Origin: Streptomyces asoensis
Lineage (GTDB): Bacteria > Actinomycetota > Actinomycetes > Streptomycetales > Streptomycetaceae
Direction of reading: 5' to 3'
Assembly: GCF_013085465.1 (NCBI RefSeq)
Contig: NZ_CP049838.1
Coordinates: forward strand, 8,990,001-9,054,000
Length of the DNA: 64,000 bases
A program made the position numbers and the translations under genes. The notes below the pieces were generated by a model that was not told where the DNA came from, made no database searches, and worked only from the letters and a program-made list of their open reading frames with translations. This document shows positions 9,059 through 25,013 of the stretch, in pieces. Position 1 is the first letter of the stretch, and each line of letters opens with the position of its first letter.

Positions 9059-11281
9059 TCATCGCTCCCTGACCAGCGCCGCGTACGAGCCGCCGCGCGC
9101 CACCAGTTCCTCGTGCCGCCCGCGTTCCACGACCGTGCCGTGCTGGAGTACGACGATCTCGTCGCTGTCGCGCACCGTGCTGAGCCGGTGGGCGATCACC
9201 ACGCACGCGCAGCCGCGACGGCGCAGGTTGTCCATCACCACCTGCTCGGTCTCCGCGTCCAGCGCGCTGGTCACCTCGTCCAGCACCAGGATGCTGGGCC
9301 GGCGCACCAACGCCCGCGCGATCTCCAGGCGTTGGCGCTGACCGCCGGAGAAGTTGCGGCCGTCCTGCTCGACCCTGCTGTGGATGCCACCGGGCCGCCG
9401 CACGACCGTGTCGTAGAGCGCCGCGTCCCTGAGCGCGTCGACGACGGCGTCGTCCGGGATCGACGGGTCCCACAGCGCCACGTTGTCCCGTACCGAGCCC
9501 TCGAAGAGGAACACCTCCTGGTCGACGAAGGACACCGAGGAGGCGAGCGCCCCGCGCGGAATGTCCTCCAGCCGCTGCCCGTCGACGCGGATCACGCCCT
9601 CCCAGGGCGCGTACAGACCCGAGATCAGCCGGGACACCGTCGACTTGCCGCTGCCCGAGCCGCCGACCAGCGCCACCTGCTGCCCCGGTCCGACCGTCAG
9701 GTCGAAGCCGGTCAGCAGCGGCTTGTCCAGCGGGCTGTAGCCGAAGGTGATGTTCTCCAGCTCGACATGACCGTGCAGCCGACGCGTGGAGTCGGCGCCC
9801 GCGCGGCGGTCGTAGAGGGGGTCGGCGCGGAAGTTCTCCACGTCCTTCAGCCGGGCCACGTCCGCCGCGAAGTCCTGAATGCGGCCCGCGACGCCGTTGA
9901 GGCGGGTCAGCGGGGCGGTGAAGCGGGTGACCAGAGCCTGGAAGGCGACCAGCAGACCCACCGAGATATGGCCCTCGATCGCCCGCATGCCGCCGATCCA
10001 CAGGATCAGCGCGCTGTTGAGCGTCGCGAGCGTCGGCGCGACCACGCCCAGCCAGGCGCTCGGCACCCCGAGCCGCTGCTGCTCCTCCAGCGTGGTGGCG
10101 TGCTGCCCGGCCCACTTGCGGAAGTACCCCTCCTCGCCGCCGGTCGCCTTCATCGTCTCGATCAACTGGAGGCCGGTGTACGCCGTGTTGGTGAGCCGGG
10201 CGTTGTCCGCGCGCAGCTTCGCCGTCCGGGTCGCGCGCAGCCGGATGACGATCCGCATGGCGACGATGTTCAGCAGCGCCACGCCGATCCCGACGGCCGT
10301 CAGCTGCGGGTCGTAGGTGTAGAGGAGGACCGCGTACAGGACGACGACGATCGCGTCCACGCCCGCCGACGCCAGGTCGCGGGCCAGCGTCTCGGCGACC
10401 GCGTCGTTCGACTGGAGTCGCTGGACCAGGTCGGCCGGGCTGCGCTGGGAGAAGAAGGTGACCGGCAGTCGCAGCAGATGGCGCAGGAAGCGGGCGCTGG
10501 AGAGGGTCGAGGAGATGATCCGGCCGTGGTGCAGATTGGCCTGTTGGAGCCAGGTCAGGGCCACCGTGAGGGCCACGCAGGTGCCCATCGAGACGAACAG
10601 CACGCCCAGCAGCGAGGTCTGCCGTCCGATCAGGAACATGTCGATGTAGGTCCGGCTGAGCGCCGGCACGGCCGCGCCCACCAGGACCAGCAGCAGACTC
10701 GCCAGCACGGCCGCCGGCAGGGTGCCCGCGGTGCCGCGCAGCCGGGCAGGCATCGCGCCCAGCACACCCGGTCTGCGTCCGCCCCGCTCGAAGTCCTCGC
10801 CCGGCTCCAGCACCAGCACGACACCGGTGAAGCTGCCGTCGAAGTCCTCGATCGGCACGAAACGCCGGCCCTTGCCGGGGTCGTTGATGTACACGCCCCG
10901 GCGGCCGAACCGACGGCCCAGACCCTCGTAGACGACGTAGTGGTTGAACTCCCAGAAGAGGATCGCGGGCGACCTGACCCCGGCGAGGGCCGCCAGGTCC
11001 ATCTGCATGCCCTTGGCCGTGAGGCCGTAACTGCGGGCCGCCTTCAGCAGGTTGCTCGCCCGCGAGCCGTCGCGGGAGACACCGCACGCGATGCGCAGCT
11101 CCTCCAGCGGGATGTGCCGGCCGTAGTGCCCGAGGACCATGGCGAGCGAGGCCGCCCCGCACTCCACGGCCTCCATCTGGAGCACGGTGGGCGTACGGAC
11201 GGTCTTCGTCCGGCTCTTGGGAACGGTGCGCCGGGGCGGTGCGGCACGCCGCCGGGTCCGCGGCTGCTCGGTGGTGGTCAC
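9059..11281 (-). CDS. NHLP-family peptide export ABC transporter with C39 peptidase domain
   Basis: Peptidase-containing ABC transporter, 740 aa, predicted to remove a double-glycine leader and export the core. The N-terminal C39 cysteine protease has Cys41 (AVECGAASLAMVLGHYG), His114 (FNHYVVYEG) and Asp134 (YINDPGKG). Six membrane helices (about 175-470) are followed by an ATPase with Walker A GGSGSGKST (about 539), signature NFSGGQRQRLEIARAL and Walker B ILVLDEVTSALD. The frame stays open upstream to 11953, but the GTG at 11281 forms a GTGA overlap with the HlyD gene stop and fits the family start (TTTEQPRTRRR). All catalytic residues are present, so it should be active. Confidence 0.95.
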   Translation of the reverse strand: MTTTEQPRTRRRAAPPRRTVPKSRTKTVRTPTVLQMEAVECGAASLAMVLGHYGRHIPLEELRIACGVSRDGSRASNLLKAARSYGLTAKGMQMDLAALAGVRSPAILFWEFNHYVVYEGLGRRFGRRGVYINDPGKGRRFVPIEDFDGSFTGVVLVLEPGEDFERGGRRPGVLGAMPARLRGTAGTLPAAVLASLLLVLVGAAVPALSRTYIDMFLIGRQTSLLGVLFVSMGTCVALTVALTWLQQANLHHGRIISSTLSSARFLRHLLRLPVTFFSQRSPADLVQRLQSNDAVAETLARDLASAGVDAIVVVLYAVLLYTYDPQLTAVGIGVALLNIVAMRIVIRLRATRTAKLRADNARLTNTAYTGLQLIETMKATGGEEGYFRKWAGQHATTLEEQQRLGVPSAWLGVVAPTLATLNSALILWIGGMRAIEGHISVGLLVAFQALVTRFTAPLTRLNGVAGRIQDFAADVARLKDVENFRADPLYDRRAGADSTRRLHGHVELENITFGYSPLDKPLLTGFDLTVGPGQQVALVGGSGSGKSTVSRLISGLYAPWEGVIRVDGQRLEDIPRGALASSVSFVDQEVFLFEGSVRDNVALWDPSIPDDAVVDALRDAALYDTVVRRPGGIHSRVEQDGRNFSGGQRQRLEIARALVRRPSILVLDEVTSALDAETEQVVMDNLRRRGCACVVIAHRLSTVRDSDEIVVLQHGTVVERGRHEELVARGGSYAALVRER

Positions 11282-12084
11282 GGGAGCAGCCAATCGACGG
11301 GACGCTGGTCGGCCAGCCGGATCGAACCCGTGGCCATGGTCATGGAGGTGAGGGCGTACGGCGGCCCGTCCGCGGACGACCACGTGTAGCCGCTCTTCGT
11401 CGCCGAGGACTTGTCCAGACGGACCAGGACCGCCACCGGGCGGCCGTCCTCGGTGAACTGCTCGCCCAGCTGGCTGTCGCCGAGGAACGCGGCGATCGCC
11501 TGCGCCGACTGGGCCGCACGGTCCACCGACTTCACATGACCGCGCAGCACGCCGTACTCCTGCGAGGGCACGGTCTGCACGGTGAGGTCGACGGGCGCGC
11601 CCGACGGGATGGAGGCGGCGTTCTCCGCGGGGACGTACACCGTGGCGTACAGCGGGTCGTCGGCGCCGGCGACCTTCTCCACGGCGGCGACGTTCGCGCC
11701 GGTGGAGATGATCTGCCCGATGGTGGCGGCGAGTGCGGTGATCCGGCCCGCGGCGACCGTCCGCACCACGGCGTCGCCCTCCGCCGTACGCACCTTCAGC
11801 ACGGGCGAGCCGGCGGGCAGCCGCTCGCCCTCCTTCGCGAGGACCGCGGTGACCTGGCCCGCGGCGGGGCTCTGGAGGATGTAGCTGCCCTCGCCGTGGG
11901 TGAGGACGGCGGGCGCGCTCACCGTGGAGGCGACCGAACCGGTCACCGCCCACACGGATGCGGCCGCCATGACGACCACGGTCACGGACAGCACCAGCCA
12001 GCCCTGGGGGCGCGCGAAACGCACCGGCAGGTCGAGTTCCTCCGGCGACTGGAGCTTGGCGAGGGCCTGTTGGCGGAACTGCAC
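11278..12084 (-). CDS. HlyD-family secretion adaptor of the NHLM peptide export system
   Basis: Membrane-anchored adaptor, 268 aa. One transmembrane helix (about 29-50, WLVLSVTVVVMAAASVWAV) follows a short cytoplasmic N-terminus. The extracytoplasmic part has the barrel-sandwich layout of membrane-fusion proteins (VLTHGEGSYILQSPAAGQVTAV and the returning half around VRTVAAGRITALAA) and a distal beta-barrel with YATVYVPAENAASIPSGAPV. It lacks a long coiled-coil hairpin, as expected for the short NHLM secretion proteins of monoderms. GTG start at 12084. Its stop overlaps the peptidase-ABC start by 4 bp. Thought to guide the peptide outward with the two ABC proteins. Confidence 0.88.
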   Translation of the reverse strand: MQFRQQALAKLQSPEELDLPVRFARPQGWLVLSVTVVVMAAASVWAVTGSVASTVSAPAVLTHGEGSYILQSPAAGQVTAVLAKEGERLPAGSPVLKVRTAEGDAVVRTVAAGRITALAATIGQIISTGANVAAVEKVAGADDPLYATVYVPAENAASIPSGAPVDLTVQTVPSQEYGVLRGHVKSVDRAAQSAQAIAAFLGDSQLGEQFTEDGRPVAVLVRLDKSSATKSGYTWSSADGPPYALTSMTMATGSIRLADQRPVDWLLP

Positions 12085-12115
12085 GGGCCTACCTAGGGAG
12101 TTTCAGGGCACCGAT

Positions 12116-12148
12116 GAGTCCCGGAGCCGGGTGACGGCTCCGGGACTC
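12116..12148. terminator. 13-bp hairpin between precursor gene and export genes
   Basis: Perfect arms 12116-12128 and 12136-12148 with a 7-nt loop lie 23 bp after the precursor stop and 32 bp before the HlyD start. On the minus strand this is an intra-operon terminator or attenuator that would give more precursor than exporter mRNA. Confidence 0.7.
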
Positions 12149-12170
12149 AAAGGGGTCACGAAGGGTGCGA

Positions 12171-12386
12171 TCAGAGACCGGCGACCAGGTTGGTGACCGG
12201 GGCCGTGTTCAGGCCGGTGACGCCCTCGACGGTGCCGACGGCCGTGTTGACCAGGCCGGAGACCGGGGCGATGCCGTCCACCAGGCCGGTGACGGTGCCG
12301 ACGGCGTTCAGGGACAGACCGCCGGAGACGTTGTCCAGCTCGGCGTCGGAGATCTCGACGGTCTCAACCTGGGGGGTGGAGTTCAT
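12171..12386 (-). CDS. Double-glycine leader precursor peptide with a cysteine-free core
   Basis: Predicted ribosomal peptide precursor, 71 aa. The leader (residues 1-23) is acidic and ends in ISDAELDNVSGG, a classic C39-peptidase recognition sequence with Gly-Gly at the cut. The 48-residue core is rich in Gly, Val, Leu, Thr and Asn, has no Cys and only two Ser, and contains two imperfect repeats of about 20 residues, each beginning AVGTV. Peptides of this leader type are often labelled type A2 lantipeptides, but thioether rings are impossible here. An ATG lies 10 codons upstream (12416), but only ATG 12386 has a good ribosome-binding site (GGGAAG). First gene of the NHLM export operon. Confidence 0.8.
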   Translation of the reverse strand: MNSTPQVETVEISDAELDNVSGGLSLNAVGTVTGLVDGIAPVSGLVNTAVGTVEGVTGLNTAPVTNLVAGL

Positions 12387-13409
12387 GGTGGAACTTCCCT
12401 TCACATGGATATTCATAAGGGGGGAGCGGCCCCCTCTGGGGACAGATGACGGCCGCGAGCACGGGCACCGGGCACCCGTTTCCGGGAGACCGCGGTGACC
12501 CTGCGGTGCGATGGATCAAAGCAGGTCCGCGGTCGGCGCAGCCAATCAATCCCTGCGTTCACCTGGGAACTTGTGTCACGGGAGCGTGAAACGGTGCAGG
12601 CGCGCCCACGGCTTGTCGGCGACTTCTTCACACCATGGGCGGTTCTGCTCGGATGAGCGTCCGGCGGTCTCGCGGCGAATCCGACACTCCCGCCCCAAAG
12701 GCGTGGCGGGCGCCGAGCAGTTGTGCAGAACCCCCGCTTCCGGTGACCTGCTTGGGCATTCGATGTGCAGATTCTCCGAAGCGGGGATTCGGCCCGCGGA
12801 TCTGAACGGAATGTCATCGGTCGACCACGAGACGTGTCGGTCGACACATGCCCGAACGGGGAGCGCATAGCTCGTGCACAGGTTGGCGAACGTCTTCCGG
12901 GGTCGGGCTTCGGCCGAACCGCTCGGTTCAGGACATCCGAATCGGTCACCGCGCACCGGAACGAAGTCGGTAGGTGTGCCGTCTTCCTGTTTTCAGGGCC
13001 CTGCGAGCGGCCGACACGGTGATCCGGACGGCCGTGTCCGTGGCCGCCGCCGCCACCTGTCCCGGAGGTCTCCCGCCCTCCCGTGCCGGTGCACCTGACC
13101 AGGGAGGACGTCGAACCGGCGGTGCTGGTCGACGAGTTCGGCGAGCAGGCCCGGAGCTGGCGCCCGGAGTGCGAAGCCGACCGAAAGGATCTTGTCGGCT
13201 TCGGCGGTCGTCATCGCCATATGGGCGTTTGTTCCCGGGGTCGCGAGGTCGGACTCCGGTCATGGCCGATTCACGTTTGAGCAAAGGAAGTTGGCAAACG
13301 CGATTGAACGCACCCCTCGACCCCTGCGTACTCATGGCCAACCAGGCGCCGCTGTACGGAGCTGCCGAACCCCGGCAGCCAGACCCCGTCCCCCAGGAGG
13401 TCGAGTTTT
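12387..13409. other. About 1 kb without a convincing gene
   Basis: Divergent region between the precursor gene and the protease gene, less GC-rich than its surroundings. It must hold both promoters. Short open frames occur on both strands but none has a recognisable product. Visible structure: a direct repeat TCGGTCGAC at 12817-12825 and 12837-12845, and an overlapping inverted repeat GTGTCG-GT-CGACAC at 12834-12847. A possible small gene is listed separately at 12993-13220. Confidence 0.55.
12993..13220 (-). CDS. Possible small hypothetical ORF
   Basis: Frame of 75 codons starting MAMTTAEADKILSVGFALR. The first 45 codons have the G/C-ending third positions of a real Streptomyces gene, while the last part is Arg/Pro-rich and looks non-coding. 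It could be a small gene or the degraded start of one. No family recognised. Confidence 0.2.
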   Translation of the reverse strand: MAMTTAEADKILSVGFALRAPAPGLLAELVDQHRRFDVLPGQVHRHGRAGDLRDRWRRRPRTRPSGSPCRPLAGP

Positions 13410-14945
13410 TTGAGTCACAAGCGAGTTACGAAGCGCAAGGCCATCATCGCCGCAGGCGGTGTGGCTGCGCTCGGAGCGGCAGCCATCCTGCTTCCCCAGG
13501 CCAACGCCTCCCAGGACGGCGGTTCCGACAACGCCGCCACGGTGAAGACGCTCAAGGCGGGCGACGCCTCGGACCTCGCCGCACAGCTCGAGAAGCTGCT
13601 CGGTGACGCCTTCGCCGGCTCGTACTACGACAGCGAGGGCAAGCAACTCGTCGTCAACGTGATCAACGTCGAGGGCGATGACATCAACATCGACGGCGAC
13701 GAGAACCAGGTCATCGTGCAGGCCAAGAAGGCGGGCGCCAAGATCCGCCAGGTCGACAACAGCACCGCCGAACTCGAGGCGGCCGCGAAGACGCTGAAGA
13801 AGGAAGCGACCATCCCGGGCACCGCCTGGGCCGTCGACCCCAAGACGAACAAGATCCTCGTCACCGCCGACTCCACGGTCACCGGCACCAAGTGGGACCA
13901 GATCGAGTCGACCGTCAAGACCCTCGGCACGGGCATGGCGACGATCCAGAAGTCGGCCGGCACCTTCACCACGAAGGTCGCCGGAGGCGACGCGATATTC
14001 GGCGGCGGGGCACGCTGTTCCCTCGGCTTCAACGTGACGGCCGGCGACGGCTCCCCGGCCTTCCTGACGGCCGGTCACTGCGGGGTGGCGGCCGAGCAGT
14101 GGTCCGACTCCGAGGACGGCGAGCCGATCGCCACCGTCGACCAGGCGACCTTCCCCGGGGACGGCGACTTCGCGCTCGTGAAGTACGACGACCCCGCCAC
14201 CGTTGCCGCGAGCGAGGTCAACCTCGGCGACCAGACTCTCGCGATCACCGAGGCCGCCGAGGCGACGGTCGGCACGCAGGTCTTCCGGATGGGCAGCACC
14301 ACCGGTCTCAACGACGGTCAGGTCCTCGCCCTCGACGCCACCGTGAACTACCCCGAGGGCACCGTCACGGGCCTCATCCAGACGGACGTCTGCGCCGAGC
14401 CCGGCGACAGCGGCGGCTCGCTCTTCACCCAGGAAGGCCAGGCGATCGGCCTGACCTCGGGCGGCAGCGGTGACTGCACCGTCGGTGGCGAGACCTTCTT
14501 CCAGCCGGTGACCACCGCGCTCGAGGCGGTCGGCGCGACCCTCGGCGACGGCGGCATCGGCGCCGGTGACGCGGTCGGCGGCGAGGAAGCCGGTGCCGGT
14601 GCGGTGGACGAGAACGGTGACGGCATCGACGACAACACCGGCGAGGCCATCGTCGGCGGCGGCGAGGAAGCCGGTGCCGGTGCGGTGGACGAGAACGGTG
14701 ACGGCATCGACGACAACACCGGCGAGGCCATCGAGGGCGGCGGCGAAGAGGCCGGTGCCGGTGCGGTGGACGAGAACGGTGACGGCATCGACGACCAGAC
14801 CGGCGAGGCCATCGTCGGCGGCGGCGAAGAGGCCGGTGCCGGCGCGGACGAGAACGCCGACGGCGGCGCGGACGAGAACGCAGGCGGCCACGACCAGAAC
14901 GACAACGGCGCGGAGGACGGCTCGGGTGTGAACGAGTCGCACTGA
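13410..14945 (+). CDS. Secreted streptogrisin-type S1 serine protease with acidic repeat tail
   Basis: Alpha-lytic/streptogrisin family protease, 511 aa. Layout: signal peptide (about 1-34), propeptide (about 35-193, including the alpha-lytic pro-domain fold), catalytic domain starting near DAIFGGGARCSLGFNV (194), then a tail. The triad is His223 (TAGHCG), Asp253 (GDGDFALV) and Ser334 (PGDSGGS); Cys pairs 203/224 and 328/356 match the family. Residues 389-493 consist of three complete 26-27-residue repeats containing DENGDGIDD and a partial fourth. These look like calcium-binding DxNxDGxxD loops, and the final 30 residues are Asp/Asn/Gly-rich. TTG start, with AGGAGG nine bases upstream. A likely target of the SSI inhibitor family. 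Confidence 0.93.
   Translation: MSHKRVTKRKAIIAAGGVAALGAAAILLPQANASQDGGSDNAATVKTLKAGDASDLAAQLEKLLGDAFAGSYYDSEGKQLVVNVINVEGDDINIDGDENQVIVQAKKAGAKIRQVDNSTAELEAAAKTLKKEATIPGTAWAVDPKTNKILVTADSTVTGTKWDQIESTVKTLGTGMATIQKSAGTFTTKVAGGDAIFGGGARCSLGFNVTAGDGSPAFLTAGHCGVAAEQWSDSEDGEPIATVDQATFPGDGDFALVKYDDPATVAASEVNLGDQTLAITEAAEATVGTQVFRMGSTTGLNDGQVLALDATVNYPEGTVTGLIQTDVCAEPGDSGGSLFTQEGQAIGLTSGGSGDCTVGGETFFQPVTTALEAVGATLGDGGIGAGDAVGGEEAGAGAVDENGDGIDDNTGEAIVGGGEEAGAGAVDENGDGIDDNTGEAIEGGGEEAGAGAVDENGDGIDDQTGEAIVGGGEEAGAGADENADGGADENAGGHDQNDNGAEDGSGVNESH
14574..14888 (+). repeat. 81-bp tandem repeat inside the protease gene
   Basis: In-frame tandem repeat coding the GGGEEAGAGAVDENGDGIDD-type unit of 27 residues. 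Three full copies and one diverged partial copy are present; copies differ by a few bases only, suggesting recent expansion. Confidence 0.9.
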
Positions 14946-17478: not shown

Positions 17479-18087
17479 GTGATCCGCGTACTACTGGTGC
17501 ACGACGCGTGTCTGGTCAGATCGGTCCTCGCACAGTGGCTGTCCCGGGAACCCGATCTTCGGGTGGAGGACGTCCCGTGGCGCAGCGCGGCGGGCCGCGT
17601 CGGGGCGGTGCGTCCGGACGTGTGTGCGGCGGACCTCGACTGCTCCGACGCCTACGGCCTCCCGCCGCTGGGCGACTTGTGCCCGCGGGGTGGCGGCCTG
17701 GTGCCGCCGCGTCTGCTGGTGCTCGCCAGCGCGAACCGGCCGGGCCTGCTGAAACGGGCCCTGGAGGCGGGGGCGCTCGGCTATGTCGACAAGGCGGGCA
17801 CACCGGAGCAGCTGCTGCGCGGCATCCGGAAGGTTGCCCAGGGGGAACGTTTCGTCAATGACTCGCTGGGCTTCGGCTTCCTCAAGGCCGCCGAGATGCC
17901 GCTGACCCGTCGGGAGCTGAGCGTGTTAACCCTCGCCGCCGAGGGCGCCTCCGTCGCGGAGATCGCCGGGAACCTGCATCTGTCCCACGGGACCGTGCGC
18001 AACTACATGGCGGCGATCACCCGCAAGACCGGCGCCCGCAACCGGGTCGACGCCATCCGTATCTCCCAGGGGCAGGGCTGGCTGTGA
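17479..18087 (+). CDS. ramR: RamR-like LuxR-type response regulator of the SapB cluster
   Basis: DNA-binding activator, 202 aa, predicted to switch on ramCSAB. The receiver domain (about 1-120) is atypical: the acidic pair after strand 1 is HD rather than DD (VLLVHDACLV), the switch Thr/Ser after strand 4 is Ala (LLVLASAN), while the acceptor-like Asp (CAADLD) and Lys (VDKAG) remain. The C-terminal LuxR helix-turn-helix is LTRRELSVLTLAAEG...SVAEIAGNLHLSHGTVRNY. GTG start with GAAGGGG upstream. Codon 150 is TTA (17926-17928), implying dependence on the bldA tRNA. Convergent with ramB, whose open frame covers the last 162 bases of this gene. Assignment rests on cluster context and domain type. 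Confidence 0.85.
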   Translation: MIRVLLVHDACLVRSVLAQWLSREPDLRVEDVPWRSAAGRVGAVRPDVCAADLDCSDAYGLPPLGDLCPRGGGLVPPRLLVLASANRPGLLKRALEAGALGYVDKAGTPEQLLRGIRKVAQGERFVNDSLGFGFLKAAEMPLTRRELSVLTLAAEGASVAEIAGNLHLSHGTVRNYMAAITRKTGARNRVDAIRISQGQGWL

Positions 18088-20082
18088 GCCGTCCGCCGTT
18101 CCTTCTGCTTCCCCTGCTTCCCCTGCTTCCGCCGCTTCCCCTGTTTCCTCCGCTCCTTCCCAGCCGCCGACGAGATCGCGGTACAGGGAAGAGCGTCGCA
18201 CCACCTCGTCGTGGGTGCCGTACGTGGTCCGCGGCCCGTCCATGACCAGCACCCGGCCGGCGCGCCTGGCCGAGCTGATGCGGTGGGCGACGACGACCAG
18301 GGTGCCGCCCGGCCGGGCGGCGAAGGCGCGCTCGGCGCGGGCCTCCGCCTCCTGGTCCAGGTGGCTGGTCGCCTCGTCGAGGAGGGCGAGCGGGGCGTGC
18401 GACAGGTACGCGCGCGTGAGGGCGATCAACTGGCGTTCGCCGGCCGACAGCGCCGCCGGATCCACCCTCGCCGCCGGTCCGCCCAGCGCGTCGAGCAGCG
18501 GGGTCAGGCCGACCGCCTCGGCCGCCGCGAGCAGTTCCGCCGCGGGCACGGGGTCCGGCCGCAGGTGCGTGAGGTTCTCGCCGAGGGTGTCGCTGAACAC
18601 GTACGCCTCCTGCGGGATGAGCACGCGCCGAGCGGCCGCGTCGCTGCCCGGCACCGGCCGACCGCAGATCCGCATCTCCCCGCGCACCGGCTCCAGCAGC
18701 CCGGCGATCAGCCCGGTCAGCGTGGACTTCCCGACCCCGCTCGGACCCACGACGGCCAGATGCGCCCCGGTGGGCAGGGTGAGCGTGAGGCCGTCGACGA
18801 CAGGTGCGGAGGCGGGACCGTAGGCGAAGGTGAGGGAGGTCAGGGAGAGCGCGGGGGGTGCGGGGCTCGGCGGGGCCACCGGAGGGGCGGACCGTCGGGG
18901 TGGGGCCTGCGGGGTTGCGCTCGGCCGGGGACGCTCGGTGGACGGGTGGTGGCCGGTGGACGGGTCGTGGCCGGTGAGCTGGCAGGGGGCGGCGGACGAG
19001 TGGTCTGGTGCTTCACGGGGCCGGGGCAGGGTCGGGTCGGTGCTTGCCGGTCGCCGTGTGGCGGGCGGTCGCTGGGGGCCGGGCGGTCGGTGGTGCCGCG
19101 TCGCCGGCCGGTCCGCGCCGTCGGCCGGGAGTTCCGGTGTCTCGCCGCGTGGGGCCAGCCGCCGCAGGACGACCGTCAGACGGGAGCCGCTCGTGCCCAG
19201 GCCGTGGACCAGGGCGGTCAGGGCCGGGAGCAGGGACTGGGTGACATAGGCGAGGGCGCCGACGAGAGCGCCGGGGGTCACGCCGTGGTCCAGCAGCCAG
19301 GGAGCGCCGGCCAGCAGCAGGACCAGCGGCAGATGACCGCCGAGCGCCAGGCATGCCACGCGGGCCACGCCCCAGTGGGCCAGGGCGCGGGCCGCGCGCA
19401 GCTCGGCGTCGACGAGTGCGCCGGTGTCCAGGGCGATCCGGTCCTCCGCGCCGGCCGCCGTGACGTCCCTGAGCCCCGGGCAGACGACGCCGAGGTGCCC
19501 CGCCAGAGCCTCGTCGGCGGCGAGGAACGCCTCCTGCCGTCGTGCCAGCGGCCGCAGGGTCACCGCGAACAGGCACACGCCGGCGGCGAGCGGCGGCACG
19601 ACCACCAGCAGGAGCCGCGGCGCGAGCGCGCACAGGCCGACCAGAGCGCCGGCGGACGTGAACACGAACGAGCGCGAGACCATCACCAGGCCCGCGGAGC
19701 TGTCCCGCGCGATCTCCACCTGCTGGGTGAGCCCGGACAGCGCGCCGCCGTCCGCCTCCCGCACGCCCCGCCGCACCACCCGGGTGACCAGCCGGTCCCG
19801 CAGCGGTTCCACCAGCGCGGCGACCGCCCCGTACACCCGCCCGGTCCCGTACGCGCCCACGAGCACCCCGAGCCCGGCCACCGCGAGCCACCGCAGCCCC
19901 ACCCCGGACCGCCCGGCCAGGAACCCGTCGTCCAGCGCCCGCGCCAAGGCGTATCCGAGCAGGAAGGTCTGCCCGGTCTCCAGCACCGACCAGCCCAGCA
20001 GCCGACCCAGGGCCCGCCGACGGCCCAGCAGAAAGCGGAGCCCCCTGGCCCCGAGCCCGTCCGCGTCGGACGCCCGACTCAC
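17926..20082 (-). CDS. ramB: RamB-like ABC transporter of the SapB-type lanthipeptide cluster
   Basis: Second half of a predicted heterodimeric exporter, 718 aa by the open frame. Membrane domain about 30-315; nucleotide-binding domain about 410-650 with Walker A GPSGVGKST, signature LSAGERQL, Walker B LALLDEATSHLD and H-loop VVAHRIS. A very long Pro/Arg/Ser/Thr-rich linker of about 90 residues (about 318-408) separates them, which is unusual. After the normal end (YRDLVGGWE) no stop occurs; the frame continues through a Glu/Ala/Gly repeat and then antisense to ramR until TAA at 17926-17928. The real C-terminus may therefore be about 70 residues longer than in relatives. GTG start overlaps the ramA stop by 4 bp. 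Confidence 0.85.
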   Translation of the reverse strand: MSRASDADGLGARGLRFLLGRRRALGRLLGWSVLETGQTFLLGYALARALDDGFLAGRSGVGLRWLAVAGLGVLVGAYGTGRVYGAVAALVEPLRDRLVTRVVRRGVREADGGALSGLTQQVEIARDSSAGLVMVSRSFVFTSAGALVGLCALAPRLLLVVVPPLAAGVCLFAVTLRPLARRQEAFLAADEALAGHLGVVCPGLRDVTAAGAEDRIALDTGALVDAELRAARALAHWGVARVACLALGGHLPLVLLLAGAPWLLDHGVTPGALVGALAYVTQSLLPALTALVHGLGTSGSRLTVVLRRLAPRGETPELPADGADRPATRHHRPPGPQRPPATRRPASTDPTLPRPREAPDHSSAAPCQLTGHDPSTGHHPSTERPRPSATPQAPPRRSAPPVAPPSPAPPALSLTSLTFAYGPASAPVVDGLTLTLPTGAHLAVVGPSGVGKSTLTGLIAGLLEPVRGEMRICGRPVPGSDAAARRVLIPQEAYVFSDTLGENLTHLRPDPVPAAELLAAAEAVGLTPLLDALGGPAARVDPAALSAGERQLIALTRAYLSHAPLALLDEATSHLDQEAEARAERAFAARPGGTLVVVAHRISSARRAGRVLVMDGPRTTYGTHDEVVRRSSLYRDLVGGWEGAEETGEAAEAGEAGEAEGTADGSQPALPLGDTDGVDPVAGAGLAGDRRHVVAHGPVGQMQVPGDLRDGGALGGEG
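18088..18160. repeat. Short pyrimidine-rich 9-bp repeat between ramR and the ramB body
   Basis: Several imperfect copies of a 9-base unit resembling TTCCCCTGC follow the ramR stop. On the minus strand they encode the Gly-Glu-Ala-rich stretch of the ramB C-terminal extension. Confidence 0.7.
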
Positions 20083-21833
20083 CGCGGTGCCTCCGGGCCG
20101 GCCTCGGCCTCCGTCCGCGCACCGGCCTGGGCATCGGCGCCGGCTTTTTCAGCCGTCCCGAACACCGCCCGGTACCCCGCCGTCCGCCACAGTTGCTCAT
20201 GCGTCCCCACCGCCCGCACCCGGCCCCCGTCCAGCCAGGCCACCGTGTCGGCGCGGGCGGCCGTGGAGGCGCGGTGGGCGACCACGAGGCGGGTGGCGGT
20301 CGTGGTGCGGCCGAACACGGACCGGGTGACCTGACGTTCGGTGATCGTGTCGAGGCTGGAGAGGGCGTCGTCGAGGATGAGGAGCCGGCCGCCGTGGGCG
20401 AAGGCGCGGGCCAGGCCGAGACGTTGGGCCTCGCCGCCGGAGTGCGGGGCGTCCGCGCAGGGCGTGGCGTAGCCGTCGGGCAGGCGGCGGACGAAGTCGT
20501 CGGCGCAGGCCGTACGGGCGGCCTCCCGGACCCGGGCGGGGGAGGCGAGGCCGAGGGAGACGGTGTCCTCGATCGTCGTGCCCAGCAGGGCCGGGCGGTC
20601 GAAGGCCTGGGCTATCGCGGCCCGCAGCTCGGCCCGGGGGAGGGCGGGCAGCGGCACGCCGTCCAGCAGTACCTCGCCGGCGTCCGGGTCGGTGAGCCTG
20701 CCCGCCAGCGCGGCCAGGAGTGACTTGCCGGCGCCCGAGCGGCCCACCAGGGCCAGTGTCGTCCCGCCCGGTATCACCAGGTCGACGCCGTCCAGCACCG
20801 TACGGTCACCGCGGCGGGCGGTCACGCCGCGCAGTTCGAGCCGTCCCGGGCCCTCCCGTGGCAGGCGGCGGTCGCCGTAGGGGGGAGCCGGTTCCGTCAG
20901 GACCTCGCCGAGGCGGGTGGCCGCCGTCCGGGACCGGACCAGGCCGGAGAGCTGTCCGACCAGCACGCCGACGCCGGTGGCGAGCACCGCGTAGCGGGAC
21001 GCGGCGAGGACGTCGCCCGGCGACAGCCGGTGCCGGGTGAGCAGCAGGCCCGCGACGGCGACGACCGCGAGGTGCAGCAGGGGCGCCACCGCGGTCGCCT
21101 GCGCGGCGGCCCGGCCCTGGACCCGCCACATGCGCCGGCCCGCCCGGGACAGTTCGGGCAGCGGCCGCAGGATCCGTGCGGTGTCCCGGGCCGCCGTGCC
21201 CGCCGCGCGGATCGTGCGGGCCCCGCCGACCGCCTCCGTGAGCGCGGCCGCGATCCGCCCTTGTGCCCGCTGGTAGTCCGCCACGCACGCCGAGGTGTCC
21301 CGGGCGAGGGACCGCAGCAGGAGCGTCAGGACCGGCGCACCGGTCAGGAGGACGACCGCGAGCCACGGATCGATGAGGGCCAGCGCCGCCACGGCGCCGA
21401 CCGGCCCGGCGAGCGCGGCCAGCAGCGCGGCGCGGGCGCCGGGCGCCGTACCGGCCTGGGCGGCGCTGCCGACGACCCGCGCGACGAGGTCCCCGGCGCC
21501 GAAACGGGCCGTGGCGCGCGGGCCCACGGCCAGGACGTGGCCGGTGACCCGGCGGCGCAGGAAGGCGGTGGTCCGGGCGTCGAGAGTGCCGCCGAGGACC
21601 GTCTCGCACGCGTCGAACAGGGTCAGCAGCAGGGCGAGGGCCGCGCAGCACAGCACCCAGCGGGTCGCGGGGGAGTGGGTGAGCAGCAGGTCCAGGGCCC
21701 GGCCGAGGGCCGCGGGCAGCAGCAGCGCGGCGCCGGTCGCCGCCACGCTCACCAGACCCAGGGCCACGCAGCGGGGTCCGCTGTGCCGGGTGGCCGCGCC
21801 GAGCAGCTCACCGGTCGTCCGGTCCATCGGCAT
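20079..21833 (-). CDS. ramA: RamA-like ABC transporter of the SapB-type lanthipeptide cluster
   Basis: First exporter half, 584 aa: six membrane helices (about 15-300) and a nucleotide-binding domain (about 335-560). Walker A reads GRSGAGKSL, the signature is HSGGEAQRLGLARAF and the H-loop VVAHRAS. Walker B ends LLILDDALSSLD, so the catalytic Glu is replaced by Asp. This is the degenerate site typical of heterodimeric exporters, in which the partner (RamB, with LLDEATS) holds the active one. No peptidase domain, consistent with class III lanthipeptides. ATG 21833, or ATG 21827 two codons later. Overlaps ramB by GTGA; follows ramS by 109 bp containing a hairpin. Confidence 0.88.
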   Translation of the reverse strand: MPMDRTTGELLGAATRHSGPRCVALGLVSVAATGAALLLPAALGRALDLLLTHSPATRWVLCCAALALLLTLFDACETVLGGTLDARTTAFLRRRVTGHVLAVGPRATARFGAGDLVARVVGSAAQAGTAPGARAALLAALAGPVGAVAALALIDPWLAVVLLTGAPVLTLLLRSLARDTSACVADYQRAQGRIAAALTEAVGGARTIRAAGTAARDTARILRPLPELSRAGRRMWRVQGRAAAQATAVAPLLHLAVVAVAGLLLTRHRLSPGDVLAASRYAVLATGVGVLVGQLSGLVRSRTAATRLGEVLTEPAPPYGDRRLPREGPGRLELRGVTARRGDRTVLDGVDLVIPGGTTLALVGRSGAGKSLLAALAGRLTDPDAGEVLLDGVPLPALPRAELRAAIAQAFDRPALLGTTIEDTVSLGLASPARVREAARTACADDFVRRLPDGYATPCADAPHSGGEAQRLGLARAFAHGGRLLILDDALSSLDTITERQVTRSVFGRTTTATRLVVAHRASTAARADTVAWLDGGRVRAVGTHEQLWRTAGYRAVFGTAEKAGADAQAGARTEAEAGPEAPR

Positions 21834-21876
21834 CCTGCTCCCGCACTTCCTCGGAGGTATAGGGGAGGCCGGGCCA

Positions 21877-21910
21877 CGGGCGGCCCCCTCCCTGAGGAGC
21901 GGACCGCCCG
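21877..21910. terminator. Hairpin between ramS and ramA
   Basis: Arms CGGGCGG (21877-21883) and CCGCCCG (21904-21910) with a 20-nt loop. Weak, but positioned as expected for attenuation of the exporter genes relative to the precursor gene. Confidence 0.35.
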
Positions 21911-21942
21911 GAGCCTTCAGCGTGTGGTGCGTGCCGCGCGTG

Positions 21943-22059
21943 TCAGAGACAGAGCAGAACGCTGGCCGCGCTGATGCAGGACAGCAGGCTCACGGTGCTG
22001 TTGCCGCCGCCGCTGGTGTGCTCGTCGGATTCCATCGTCTGAAGGTCGAGCAGGGCCAT
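21943..22059 (-). CDS. ramS: RamS/AmfS-like class III lanthipeptide precursor
   Basis: Tiny precursor, 38 aa, too short for routine gene finding. It begins MALLDLQTME, containing the conserved L-x-DLQ leader motif recognised by LanKC enzymes. The core carries two S-x2-S-x3-C motifs, STVSLLSC and SAASVLLC, the same spacing as in SapB and AmfS, so two lanthionine or labionin rings are predicted. The junction is Gly-rich (TSGGGN). ATG 22059 preceded by AGAGGA. It sits between ramC (upstream, same strand) and ramA, the exact ram/amf operon position. The mature product should be an amphiphilic surface-active peptide aiding aerial hyphae. Confidence 0.93.
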   Translation of the reverse strand: MALLDLQTMESDEHTSGGGNSTVSLLSCISAASVLLCL

Positions 22060-22148
22060 GGTGTGTCCTCTCATCGGTTCATCGGTTGGATGTCACGTCC
22101 CGTGGGGACGGGTTGCGTCACGACTCCGTCGGTTGGCGCGGAGCCGTG

Positions 22149-24800
22149 TCATGAGGGCCGCCGGTGCGGCGGCGGGAGGAACGGCAGGTGCGCGGTGGCG
22201 CCCGTGCCGTCCGGGTCGAGGGCGGCGGCGAGGGCCAGCAGACAGCCGGCCGTTCCGGTGCCGAGGTCCATGGAGAGCCGCATCATCTGGTGCCCGGGGA
22301 AGGCGAGTTGGCCCTGGTAGGGCATCGCGAACCAGCCCAGCGCGGCGATCTGCTCGTCGAGCCGGGTCCGGGTCGCGCCCGGCGTGGTGGTGCGGGCGAG
22401 GTGCAGGATCATCCCGGCGCGGCCCTGGAAGAGGCCGGGCTGCGCGTAGAAGCGTGAGGTGGCCGCGGTGAGGATGCCGGCGCGGGCCCGCTCGAACTCC
22501 CCCGCGGAGTCCTCGGCATGGGCCGCGTGGTCGTCGAGCACCGCCCCCACCCCCACGCTCCCGTCCCCGAGATACGGCAGGGTCCGCCACCCCTCGTCGA
22601 CCTCCAGCGCACCGTCCTCGCGCTCCCTGCACGCCGCCAGGTCCCGGCGCACGGCGACGCCGGCCGCCTCAAGGAACCGGCGCTCGCCGGTCGCCTCGTA
22701 CTGCCTGAGCAGGAACAGCGCGGGTCCGCTCGCGCCCCGCAGCAGCCCGGCCCGGCGCCGCCGGGGCGCGTCCGGCACCGGTTCGGCGAGTCGTCGTACG
22801 ACGATGTCCGCGGCCTCGGCGGCCCGCTCGCGCAAGCCCGGCTCACCCGTCCGGCGCGCCAGGTCGCCGAGGACGAGTCCCAGTCCGGCCAGCCCGCCGT
22901 GCAGGTCCGAGGAGAGGTTCTGCCACCGCTCGCGCAGGATGCCGTCGACCAGGTCCAGCGCCCGCTGCCGGTGCCCCAGCAGGTCCAGCACGTGGGCGAC
23001 GCCCGCGAGGCCGTCGTACAGACCGAGCGGGGTGCCCGTCGGGGCCGGGGCGGTGTGGTCGAGGAGCCAGCGCTCGCCGTCCTCGTGGCGTTCGGCGCCG
23101 GTCACCGCCAGCGCGTACAGCACGCCGGCCGCGCCGTGCGCCAGCCCGAGACCGCCGCCGTCGGAGAACTGGGCGACGTCCCCGGGGAAGAGCCGGTCGT
23201 CGCGCTCCGGGGTCGCCGACGCGAGGATCGCCTTGACCATCGAGTCACGGCTGTGCGGCCAGTCACCGGGCTCCACCCGGAAGGCCGGCGCCGACGGCAC
23301 CCGGGCGGCGACCCGCACCGGCGCGCCGGAAGCGCCGCCGTCCGGGGCGGGCCCGTCCGCGCGGATGTCGCGGGTGATCTCCGCGACCGCCCCGTCCAGG
23401 AACTCCCCGGGTACGTCAGGGAACTGCTCGGCGATCACCTCGGCCAGATGGGCCGCCTTGCCCCGGTCCACCACGAACAGCGTGGTGACGGGCAGGAACA
23501 GGGCCAGCCGTAAGCAGGCCAGCGCGTACCGGTCGACGTCGGCGCCCCGGCGGTCGGGCGGTGCGAAGAAGCCGGGGTGCGCCACGACCTGGCGGCCGTT
23601 CTCCCCGGCGGGGGCCGCCGCCTCGAAGTCGATCAGGCACACCGACTCCTCGTCCGGGGCGACCATGATGTTGAAGACATGCAGGTCGTTGAAGACGATC
23701 CCGCGCGCGTGCACCTTCCGCACCGCCCGTTCCACCGCCCCGTGGATCCGTACCGCCCACCCCGTGTACGCGGCGACGGCCCGCGGATCGGGGTCGGGGG
23801 AGAGCAGCGGGTGCCGCTCGGCGAAGAAGGAGTTGAGCGGACGCCCCTCGACGAGGTCCATGACCAGGAAGCGGTGGTCGCCGAGGGTGAACCAGTCCCG
23901 CACCTCGGGCACCACGCCGGTCCCCGCCAGCGCCTCCAGCGCCCGCTTCTCCCGCTCCAGCCGGGTGATCGCGTCGGCCCCGTCCGAGGCCAGCCCCGCG
24001 TGCGGCCGGCCCTCCTTGAGGACCACCCTGCGCCCGTCCCGGGTGTCGGTGCCCGCGTAGACCCCGCCGCCGTTGGAGAAGTGCAGCGCCTTCTCGATGC
24101 GGTAGGGCAGTTCGCCCACCGTCGTCGTGTTGCGGGCCGCCAGGTGCGGCTCCAGGAACGGGGGCAGCGTCACCCACTCCGGTACCTGGAAGGAGGGCGC
24201 CCGCCGGTCCGGGACCAGGGTTCCCGCGCCGTCGCGCACCGCCGGCACCAGCGAGCCCCGGTCGTCGACGACGTAACTGCGCGCGAACGCCCCGTAGCGG
24301 ACGTAGAGCGGGCCGTCGGACCAGCGCAGGTCGGTCAGGATGTACGGGCCCTCGAAGCCCTCCAGCAGGGCGCCCAGCTCGCGCAGCACGGTGTGCAGCT
24401 GCTCCTCGTCGGACGGGTAGACCGTGACGAACTTGCCGCTGGTGTCGCGGCCCGCGTACTTGGTGTTGCGCAGATGCAGCAGGTGCGGGCCCGGCACGAA
24501 CTTGAACGGGACGCGGCGCGGGACGCAGTAGTCCCACACGATCGCCGCGATCCGCTCCGCGTTCGCCCGGGTGGCCGAAGCGTGGATCTTCCAGCCCTGG
24601 GCGGGGCCCGGGGCCGGGGAGCCGTCCGCGTCGAGCGGCGTCAGGGTCAGCCAGTCGCCGATCCGCGCCGAGGTCCAGCCCTCGGGGACGGGGCGGCACG
24701 CCGTGTCGAACAGCGGAGCGGGCCCGTCGCCGGTCAGCCGGTCGGGCGTCTCGTAGAAGTGCGCGTCCGCCAGCGCGTACACCTCGTACCGCTTGTCCAT
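22149..24800 (-). CDS. ramC: RamC-like class III lanthipeptide synthetase (LanKC)
   Basis: Modifying enzyme for RamS, 883 aa. Three domains: N-terminal lyase (about 1-220), Ser/Thr kinase-like (about 225-500) and LanC-like cyclase (about 530-883). Kinase landmarks are VVLKEGRPH (ATP-binding Lys), IVFNDLHVFNIMV (catalytic loop Asp/Asn) and LIDFEAA (metal site). The cyclase part has GLAHGAAGV, GLYDGLAG and DLHGGLAG helical repeats but lacks the zinc Cys-Cys-His set, as in class III. It phosphorylates and eliminates Ser, then adds Cys. The ATG at 24800 (MDKRYEVYALADAHFYETPD) matches the family start and has GGAAGGGGA upstream. Codon 23511-23513 is TTA (Leu), implying bldA dependence. Confidence 0.95.
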   Translation of the reverse strand: MDKRYEVYALADAHFYETPDRLTGDGPAPLFDTACRPVPEGWTSARIGDWLTLTPLDADGSPAPGPAQGWKIHASATRANAERIAAIVWDYCVPRRVPFKFVPGPHLLHLRNTKYAGRDTSGKFVTVYPSDEEQLHTVLRELGALLEGFEGPYILTDLRWSDGPLYVRYGAFARSYVVDDRGSLVPAVRDGAGTLVPDRRAPSFQVPEWVTLPPFLEPHLAARNTTTVGELPYRIEKALHFSNGGGVYAGTDTRDGRRVVLKEGRPHAGLASDGADAITRLEREKRALEALAGTGVVPEVRDWFTLGDHRFLVMDLVEGRPLNSFFAERHPLLSPDPDPRAVAAYTGWAVRIHGAVERAVRKVHARGIVFNDLHVFNIMVAPDEESVCLIDFEAAAPAGENGRQVVAHPGFFAPPDRRGADVDRYALACLRLALFLPVTTLFVVDRGKAAHLAEVIAEQFPDVPGEFLDGAVAEITRDIRADGPAPDGGASGAPVRVAARVPSAPAFRVEPGDWPHSRDSMVKAILASATPERDDRLFPGDVAQFSDGGGLGLAHGAAGVLYALAVTGAERHEDGERWLLDHTAPAPTGTPLGLYDGLAGVAHVLDLLGHRQRALDLVDGILRERWQNLSSDLHGGLAGLGLVLGDLARRTGEPGLRERAAEAADIVVRRLAEPVPDAPRRRRAGLLRGASGPALFLLRQYEATGERRFLEAAGVAVRRDLAACREREDGALEVDEGWRTLPYLGDGSVGVGAVLDDHAAHAEDSAGEFERARAGILTAATSRFYAQPGLFQGRAGMILHLARTTTPGATRTRLDEQIAALGWFAMPYQGQLAFPGHQMMRLSMDLGTGTAGCLLALAAALDPDGTGATAHLPFLPPPHRRPS

Positions 24801-25013
24801 GCGTCCCCTTCCGTGGCCCTTTTCGTGGCCCGGCCAAGAGACTCGCAAGCGGACGAGGGTCGTGGACAGTCACGCCTGTCACGACATCCCTGTGCGGAAC
24901 GCACGCGTAAAGACATGTTCGGTCCGTTTCGAGCGCGGCCGGCGGCGCCCGTACCCCTTGTCGCCTCCACGAAACGGCCACAGGGGCTGCGCGGGGGCCC
25001 CTTTGGCGCTGTA
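24801..25013. promoter_or_regulatory. Divergent promoter region of ramC and phosphatase
   Basis: Contains a CGTGGCCC direct repeat just upstream of the ramC ribosome-binding site and two GTCACG words 9 bp apart (24869-24874, 24878-24883), possible sites for RamR or another activator. Promoter elements could not be assigned. Confidence 0.4.

Follow-up and report, generated by a model that had tools for sequence, protein, structure and literature searches.

A cysteine-free double-glycine peptide encoded beside its own C39 exporter in Streptomyces: a conserved four-gene unit with a possible role at the hyphal surface

INTRODUCTION

A double-glycine leader together with a C39 peptidase-ABC protein and an HlyD adaptor is the usual bacteriocin export kit. 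In a 64,000-nucleotide stretch of the Streptomyces asoensis genome (10.04 Mb, single contig; the stretch is hereafter called the window), a small peptide gene stands in front of such an exporter, and the question is what kind of product leaves the cell. An earlier note on this DNA had described a 48-residue cysteine-free core made of two repeats, encoded at the head of an operon with an HlyD adaptor, a C39-ABC protein and a second ABC protein and with no modifying gene beside it, and had called this its strongest candidate for an undescribed system. We analysed the locus further by comparison with its relatives.

RESULTS AND DISCUSSION

The precursor heads an export operon

The precursor gene begins at the ATG at window position 12386 (reverse strand), preceded by GAAGGGAAG. 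The encoded peptide consists of the leader MNSTPQVETVEISDAELDNVSGG and the core LSLNAVGTVTGLVDGIAPVSGLVNTAVGTVEGVTGLNTAPVTNLVAGL; the 23-residue leader is of the double-glycine type and ends in EISDAELDNVSGG, and the 48-residue core contains no cysteine. A GTG is also present in frame six codons upstream of the ATG, but we preferred a precursor of 71 over one of 77 residues because the GTG-to-ATG stretch overlaps the ribosome-binding site and because the position of the GTG reads ACG in S. coelicoflavus (locus L139). Matches to the precursor were found in 252 of 392 Streptomyces genomes (E<=1e-3), and thus it is no chance ORF. The two repeats were borne out by aligning the halves of the core with each other, which gave a local score of 46; over 2000 shuffles the score averaged 21.8 and never exceeded 42. 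Of the 44 diverged cores, 16 were likewise positive, the threshold being at most 5% of 200 shuffles.

Downstream, closely spaced and on the same strand, follow the genes for the HlyD adaptor, ABC1 and ABC2 (Table 1). Compared with the NHLM three-gene export module of NCBIfam, both ABC proteins scored above the cut-offs and HlyD was a near miss, so that the operon stands as the earlier note had drawn it. ABC1 contains LQMEAVEC, FNHY and NDP, which we take to be the C39 catalytic motifs, and no Peptidase_C39 (PF03412) match was obtained for ABC2 in the Pfam search. Conserved blocks upstream of the precursor are candidate promoter or regulator sites.

Table 1 Positions of the precursor operon and of flanking features in the window
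Feature	Window position	Strand	Basis or remark
Precursor, 71 aa (leader residues 1-23, core 24-71)	12171..12386	(-)	ATG ORF and family matches
GC-rich hairpin in precursor/HlyD spacer, 15-bp perfect stem, no U-run	12115..12149	(-)	Window sequence; relatives similar
HlyD-type adaptor, 268 aa, GTG start	11278..12084	(-)	TIGR03794, 155.8 bits (cut-off 156.2)
ABC1, C39 peptidase-permease-ATPase, 740 aa	9059..11281	(-)	TIGR03796, 1023 bits (cut-off 853); PF03412, E 2.4e-34
ABC2, permease-ATPase, 959 aa	6178..9057	(-)	TIGR03797, 888 bits (cut-off 709)
Conserved blocks	12496-12640		~-110 to -250 from precursor start
S1 protease	13410-14945		Divergent to the precursor operon
SapB (ram) cluster	17482-24848		Close to precursor operon
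RamC, class III lanthionine synthetase	22149-24848		Part of SapB cluster, ~10 kb off; LanC match E 1.8e-9 (Pfam)

Four genes, and no fifth, recur together

The family-wide search gave a precursor match in 58 of 121 genomes and eight of 17 genera, and the class-wide search in 30 of 394 genomes, all Streptomyces (one of 137 genera). Spread of the locus by plasmids was rejected, as only one of 72,556 plasmid records matched, an unannotated linear replicon of 1.16 Mb.

The earlier note had proposed looking for the core next to such exporters in other genomes. Among the close loci (the best 80 of 524 candidates by precursor match, a choice that biases precursor identity upwards), the precursor was accompanied by HlyD and ABC1 in all 80 and by ABC2 in 79, the missing case being a 4-kb contig. 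In diverged loci from other species and genera, the precursor preceded HlyD in 43 of 43, with both ABC1 and ABC2 in 42, L227 being cut by a contig end; L238, where neither HlyD nor a complete ABC1 lies in reach, was excluded from these 43. An adjoining modifying enzyme in homologous loci, which the earlier note had counted as refuting its proposal, was not found, and none recurred in either set, in agreement with what had been read from the window.

Clustering of the ORFs of the 43 diverged and 16 close loci revealed four recurrent clusters, found in 41, 40, 34 and 30 of the 43 diverged loci, which from examples and positions are ABC1, ABC2, the precursor and HlyD. No fifth recurrent gene for modification, immunity, reception or regulation was detected, the next-best cluster occurring in 5 of the 43, but the gene caller was crude (HlyD was recovered in only 30 of 43), and therefore a fifth gene could have escaped if it is short or badly called.

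Several flanking genes are common in the close loci (best 80 of 524): S1 protease in 73, SpoIIE phosphatase in 64 (including some cross-hits to a second SpoIIE gene), exopolyphosphatase in 55, MFS in 38, RamR in 27 and RamS in 20, with losses partly due to contig ends and the 10-kb reach. Despite this commonness we rejected them, and the ram genes altogether, as parts of the system, because in the diverged set (43 loci) only L207 and L210 have the S1 protease, 6-8 kb away, and the other genes were weak partial or generic matches or absent. In many of the close loci (best 80 of 524) a SpoIIE gene takes the place of RamR. The S1 protease of the window is of the secreted type, with an alpha-lytic prodomain and, at its C terminus, a tail in which an acidic repeat occurs several times almost unchanged; its S. 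coelicolor counterpart SCO0752 has been placed in the SigU regulon, according to the part of that paper available to us (PMC6295645).

The cores are cysteine-free, anionic and hydrophobic

The composition of the cores was determined for the 44 diverged adjacent cores plus the window core (n=45). Cysteine was absent from all 45, extending the earlier observation on the window core to the family, and without it thioether or disulfide rings through cysteine are impossible. The net charge was -4 to -1 in every core, and Lys or Arg occurred in three and Phe, Trp or Tyr in nine. Val, Gly, Thr, Leu and Ala together made up 75% of residues, with Thr at 13.3% and Ser at 7.5%; the cores were 43-62 residues long, with a median GRAVY of 1.0. 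A hydrophobic period of ~3.3 residues was apparent, with a shuffle z-score inflated by treating related cores as independent, and such a period is as compatible with a membrane-active helix as with a surfactant.

Among 81 close orthologues (68 distinct proteins), omega was 0.20 for the leader and 0.51 for the core, indicating that the core changes faster, at low dS values of 0.12 and 0.16. With so little synonymous change, we did not take dN/dS as proof of constraint. The core nevertheless stays similar among close relatives and, together with its wide occurrence, this is unlike a strain-specific killing peptide.

The window precursor remained under the cut-off of every NCBIfam and Pfam model that it matched, including PF04604 (14.2 bits, cut-off 21.7) and NF033772, and none of its eight NCBIfam families at E<=1 was an NHLP or N11P (nitrile-hydratase-like or Nif11-like) leader. 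For 16 family members the best E values were 0.00077 (NCBIfam) and 0.00049 (the Pfam type-A lantibiotic model, eight members), and these best matches lie on the leader, as far as the window precursor's own match shows. The CTB bacteriocin model matched 9 of the 16 (best E 0.0023) and Bacteriocin_IIc 3 (best E 0.039). No chaplin domain was matched in Pfam by the window precursor (E<=1) or the 16 members (E<=0.1), and a PDB sequence search gave five matches, the best at E 0.3, and nothing useful.

We therefore rejected a ring-forming or lanthionine product, as none of the 45 adjacent cores has a cysteine and no synthetase recurs in the unit. Membership of the class II lanthipeptides ('type A2 lantipeptide') fails on the same cysteine count and on the lack of a recurrent LanM-type gene. 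As for class III (SapB/AmfS), the precursor matched no RamS family, and RamC belongs to the neighbouring cluster. The double-glycine leader and C39 transporter fit both an unmodified class II bacteriocin and the EbfG-like GG-motif surface proteins; for the former, the window precursor exceeded the cut-off of no curated bacteriocin model and no immunity gene recurred in the 43 diverged loci.

The locus corresponds to SCO0753-SCO0756 of S. coelicolor

Judged by gene order, peptide size and the lack of cysteine, the window locus is almost certainly orthologous to SCO0753-SCO0756. Both have the order protease, peptide, HlyD, two ABC proteins and exopolyphosphatase, and a hydrophobic cysteine-free peptide; SCO0753 is given as 77 residues against the 71 that we prefer. 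The description as an undescribed system thus fails, since the locus was already in print in 2019 (PMC6629963) and in 2017 (PMC5733086). In the accessible portions of the 2019 paper, SCO0753-0756 is the top target of SCO5282/5283, and SCO0753 is a hydrophobic peptide beside an exporter, present in many species, which may alter the hyphal surface; its authors remarked on the absence of cysteine and considered it unlikely to act exactly as SapB for this reason (PMC6629963). The 2017 paper, as far as its text was available, lists SCO0753 in a 'bacteriocine cluster' and as up in an aor1 mutant (PMC5733086), and SCO0756 appears in transcript lists (PMC5882110, PMC6414726). The label 'type A2 lantipeptide' has been applied to a Streptomyces peptide that may or may not belong to the precursor family (PMC13047742, seen in excerpt). 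A family product already described, which the earlier note had counted as refuting its proposal, was not found: no characterised SCO0753 product is described in the literature searched, a body of text with most subscription journals outside it.

Precursor output is predicted to exceed exporter output

A hairpin follows the precursor in most of the relatives. In 75 of 81 close precursor/HlyD spacers the z-score was below -2 against mononucleotide shuffles, and in 35 of 44 diverged spacers the perfect stem was longer than in 95% of shuffles, with differing stem sequences. Such a hairpin would let precursor output exceed that of the exporter genes, and its conservation fits a high precursor output. 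This reading is in line with the reported log2 changes of 6.3 for SCO0753 and 4.4 for SCO0754, in the part of the study available (PMC6629963). There, SCO0753 was the most overexpressed gene of a dispersed S. coelicolor strain with activated SCO5282, and the operon was nearly silent in the null mutant (PMC6629963); the link to dispersal is a correlation, as many genes change in that strain.

A surface-acting peptide is the favoured explanation

On balance, the best explanation, at a probability of roughly 0.55, is that the leader directs the export of a peptide that is hydrophobic, anionic and unmodified and that acts at surfaces or self-assembles rather than serving as an antibiotic. The observations behind it are the make-up of the operon, the lack of cysteine and of a recurrent modification gene, the composition and charge of the family, the uniqueness of the exporter in most genomes and the co-occurrence of leader and exporter (the last two below). 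The C39 domain of ABC1 would recognise the leader and cut after Gly-Gly, as is familiar from its family, and ABC1, ABC2 and the HlyD adaptor would carry the 48-residue core outside the cell. At the hyphal surface, the Val/Gly/Thr/Leu/Ala-rich core could form a surface-active or self-assembling layer, and this layer might alter adherence and dispersal of the hyphae in an EbfG/PteB-like rather than an antibiotic-like manner.

A precedent is offered by EbfG1-4 of Synechococcus elongatus, GG-motif proteins that enable biofilm formation and whose efficient secretion depends on the C39 transporter PteB; EbfG1-3 form amyloid fibrils, and one EbfG has been located both at the cell surface and in the matrix, according to the sections of these papers available (PMC4997328, PMC9981879). 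Both systems combine a small GG-motif protein with a C39 peptidase transporter, a likeness of anatomy only, whereas EbfG1-4 are cyanobacterial and encoded in a four-gene ebfG operon. The same exporter trio of HlyD, C39-ABC and an ABC protein without C39 also occurs, in the passages available, with the cyanobacterial 'group V' bacteriocin clusters (PMC3140520) and the NHLP/N11P precursors (PMC2887384), from which the window precursor differs in its short 23-residue leader, the lack of an NHLP- or Nif11-type match and its anionic cysteine-free Val/Gly/Thr core. SapB (RamS/RamC), encoded nearby, is likewise a Streptomyces peptide that is small, hydrophobic and served by ABC exporters of its own, but RamS contains cysteine and its cluster a lanthionine synthetase, neither of which the precursor locus has. 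In most of the close loci (best 80 of 524), moreover, the precursor locus recurs with the ram genes out of reach.

Class II-type bacteriocins are usually cationic. An unmodified bacteriocin of this type, whose exported core permeabilises competing bacteria, is unlikely here: every one of the 45 cores is anionic, 42 of them being free of Lys and Arg, no immunity gene recurs in the 43 diverged loci, and the core is near-uniform across much of the genus, although the export kit, the below-cut-off matches to CTB and Bacteriocin_IIc, the 3.3-residue period and the printed 'bacteriocine cluster' label (PMC5733086, in the portion available) all point that way.

Rather improbable is a peptide modified in trans, for example by dehydration of its abundant Thr and Ser by an enzyme encoded elsewhere. 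LanC-like genes were detected in 33 of 40 genomes, an undercount that missed the window's own RamC, and some relatives have the SapB cluster close to the operon (RamR in reach in 27 and RamS in 20 of the best 80 of 524). However, no modification gene recurs at the locus, only one LanC-like match lies within 20 kb of a precursor among the 40 genomes (G843, 14 kb), and there is no cysteine for ring closure. Absence of LanC-like genes from a genome was dropped as evidence, because the search gave none for the window's genome despite its RamC.

Some pheromones have double-glycine leaders, and 48 hydrophobic residues are long for a pheromone. An extracellular signal sensed by its producer is the least probable reading, as the 43 diverged loci share no recurrent receptor or regulator next to the operon and the hairpin suggests a high output, notwithstanding the below-cut-off match to NF033772 and the tight two-component control described in the available text (PMC6629963).

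Beyond the published account, the family-wide data argue against ring-forming products, and the anionic, nearly Lys/Arg-free cores speak against a standard bacteriocin. The locus is very common, and its filing with the bacteriocins or as a 'type A2 lantipeptide' finds no support in the sequence as far as a ring-forming product is meant. If a surface-acting role is correct, Streptomyces would have another secreted morphogenetic peptide beside the chaplins and SapB, and one with relevance to fermentation, since a link between the controlling two-component system and the dispersal of pellets in liquid culture has already been drawn.

One exporter may serve several peptides with the same leader

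A single C39 domain, directly downstream of the precursor, was found in 29 of 40 genomes (counting G816, where it lies on another contig because the precursor contig stops there). The other 11 have a second C39 domain, adjoining a LanC-like gene in G297, G366, G233 and G180. A leader-only profile matched in 37 of 54 genomes, namely all 36 whose ABC1 exceeded 1000 bits, and in addition G180, where the C39-ABC gene is split in two in the assembly and the precursor is intact (L209). Of the 17 genomes without a leader match, 14 have no NHLM ABC1 over the cut-off and three a different ABC1 at 907-946 bits. As possession of the precursor had been the reason for including 34 of the 37, a fair comparison is confined to the remaining 20 genomes, in which the leader matched in three of three with the exporter, each time ~1.2 kb from it, and in none of the 17 without.

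More than one leader match was obtained in 22 of the 37 genomes, which is no frequency, since many had been picked for multiple matches; the window's own genome has only one. Examination of 16 secondary places revealed 17 orphan peptides with the same leader in 15 of them, the orphan of L183 having been missed by the search pattern and a 140-residue chance match in L172 excluded. Their genes (L169-L182 and L184, near position 7000 of each) lie in varied surroundings with no HlyD or full ABC1.

From this co-occurrence, the exporter probably also carries the dispersed orphans in many relatives; being usually the only C39 protein of the genome, it may have these leader-tagged peptides as further cargo, a direct prediction of one exporter with many cargoes. 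Only tentatively would we extend this to a general pathway in Streptomycetaceae, in which one NHLM-type C39 exporter, usually the genome's only C39 transporter, would secrete the resident cysteine-free anionic peptide and, in many species, several orphans, all unmodified and jointly forming a coat on the hyphae that is separate from the chaplins and SapB.

The orphan cores are Gly/Ala-rich and unlike the resident core. Some are His-rich (for example L170), three have a single cysteine (L180, L182 and L184), and tandem pairs occur in L174 and L176. In L229, two different precursors with a common leader (L229:9598 and L229:10106) stand in tandem before one exporter.
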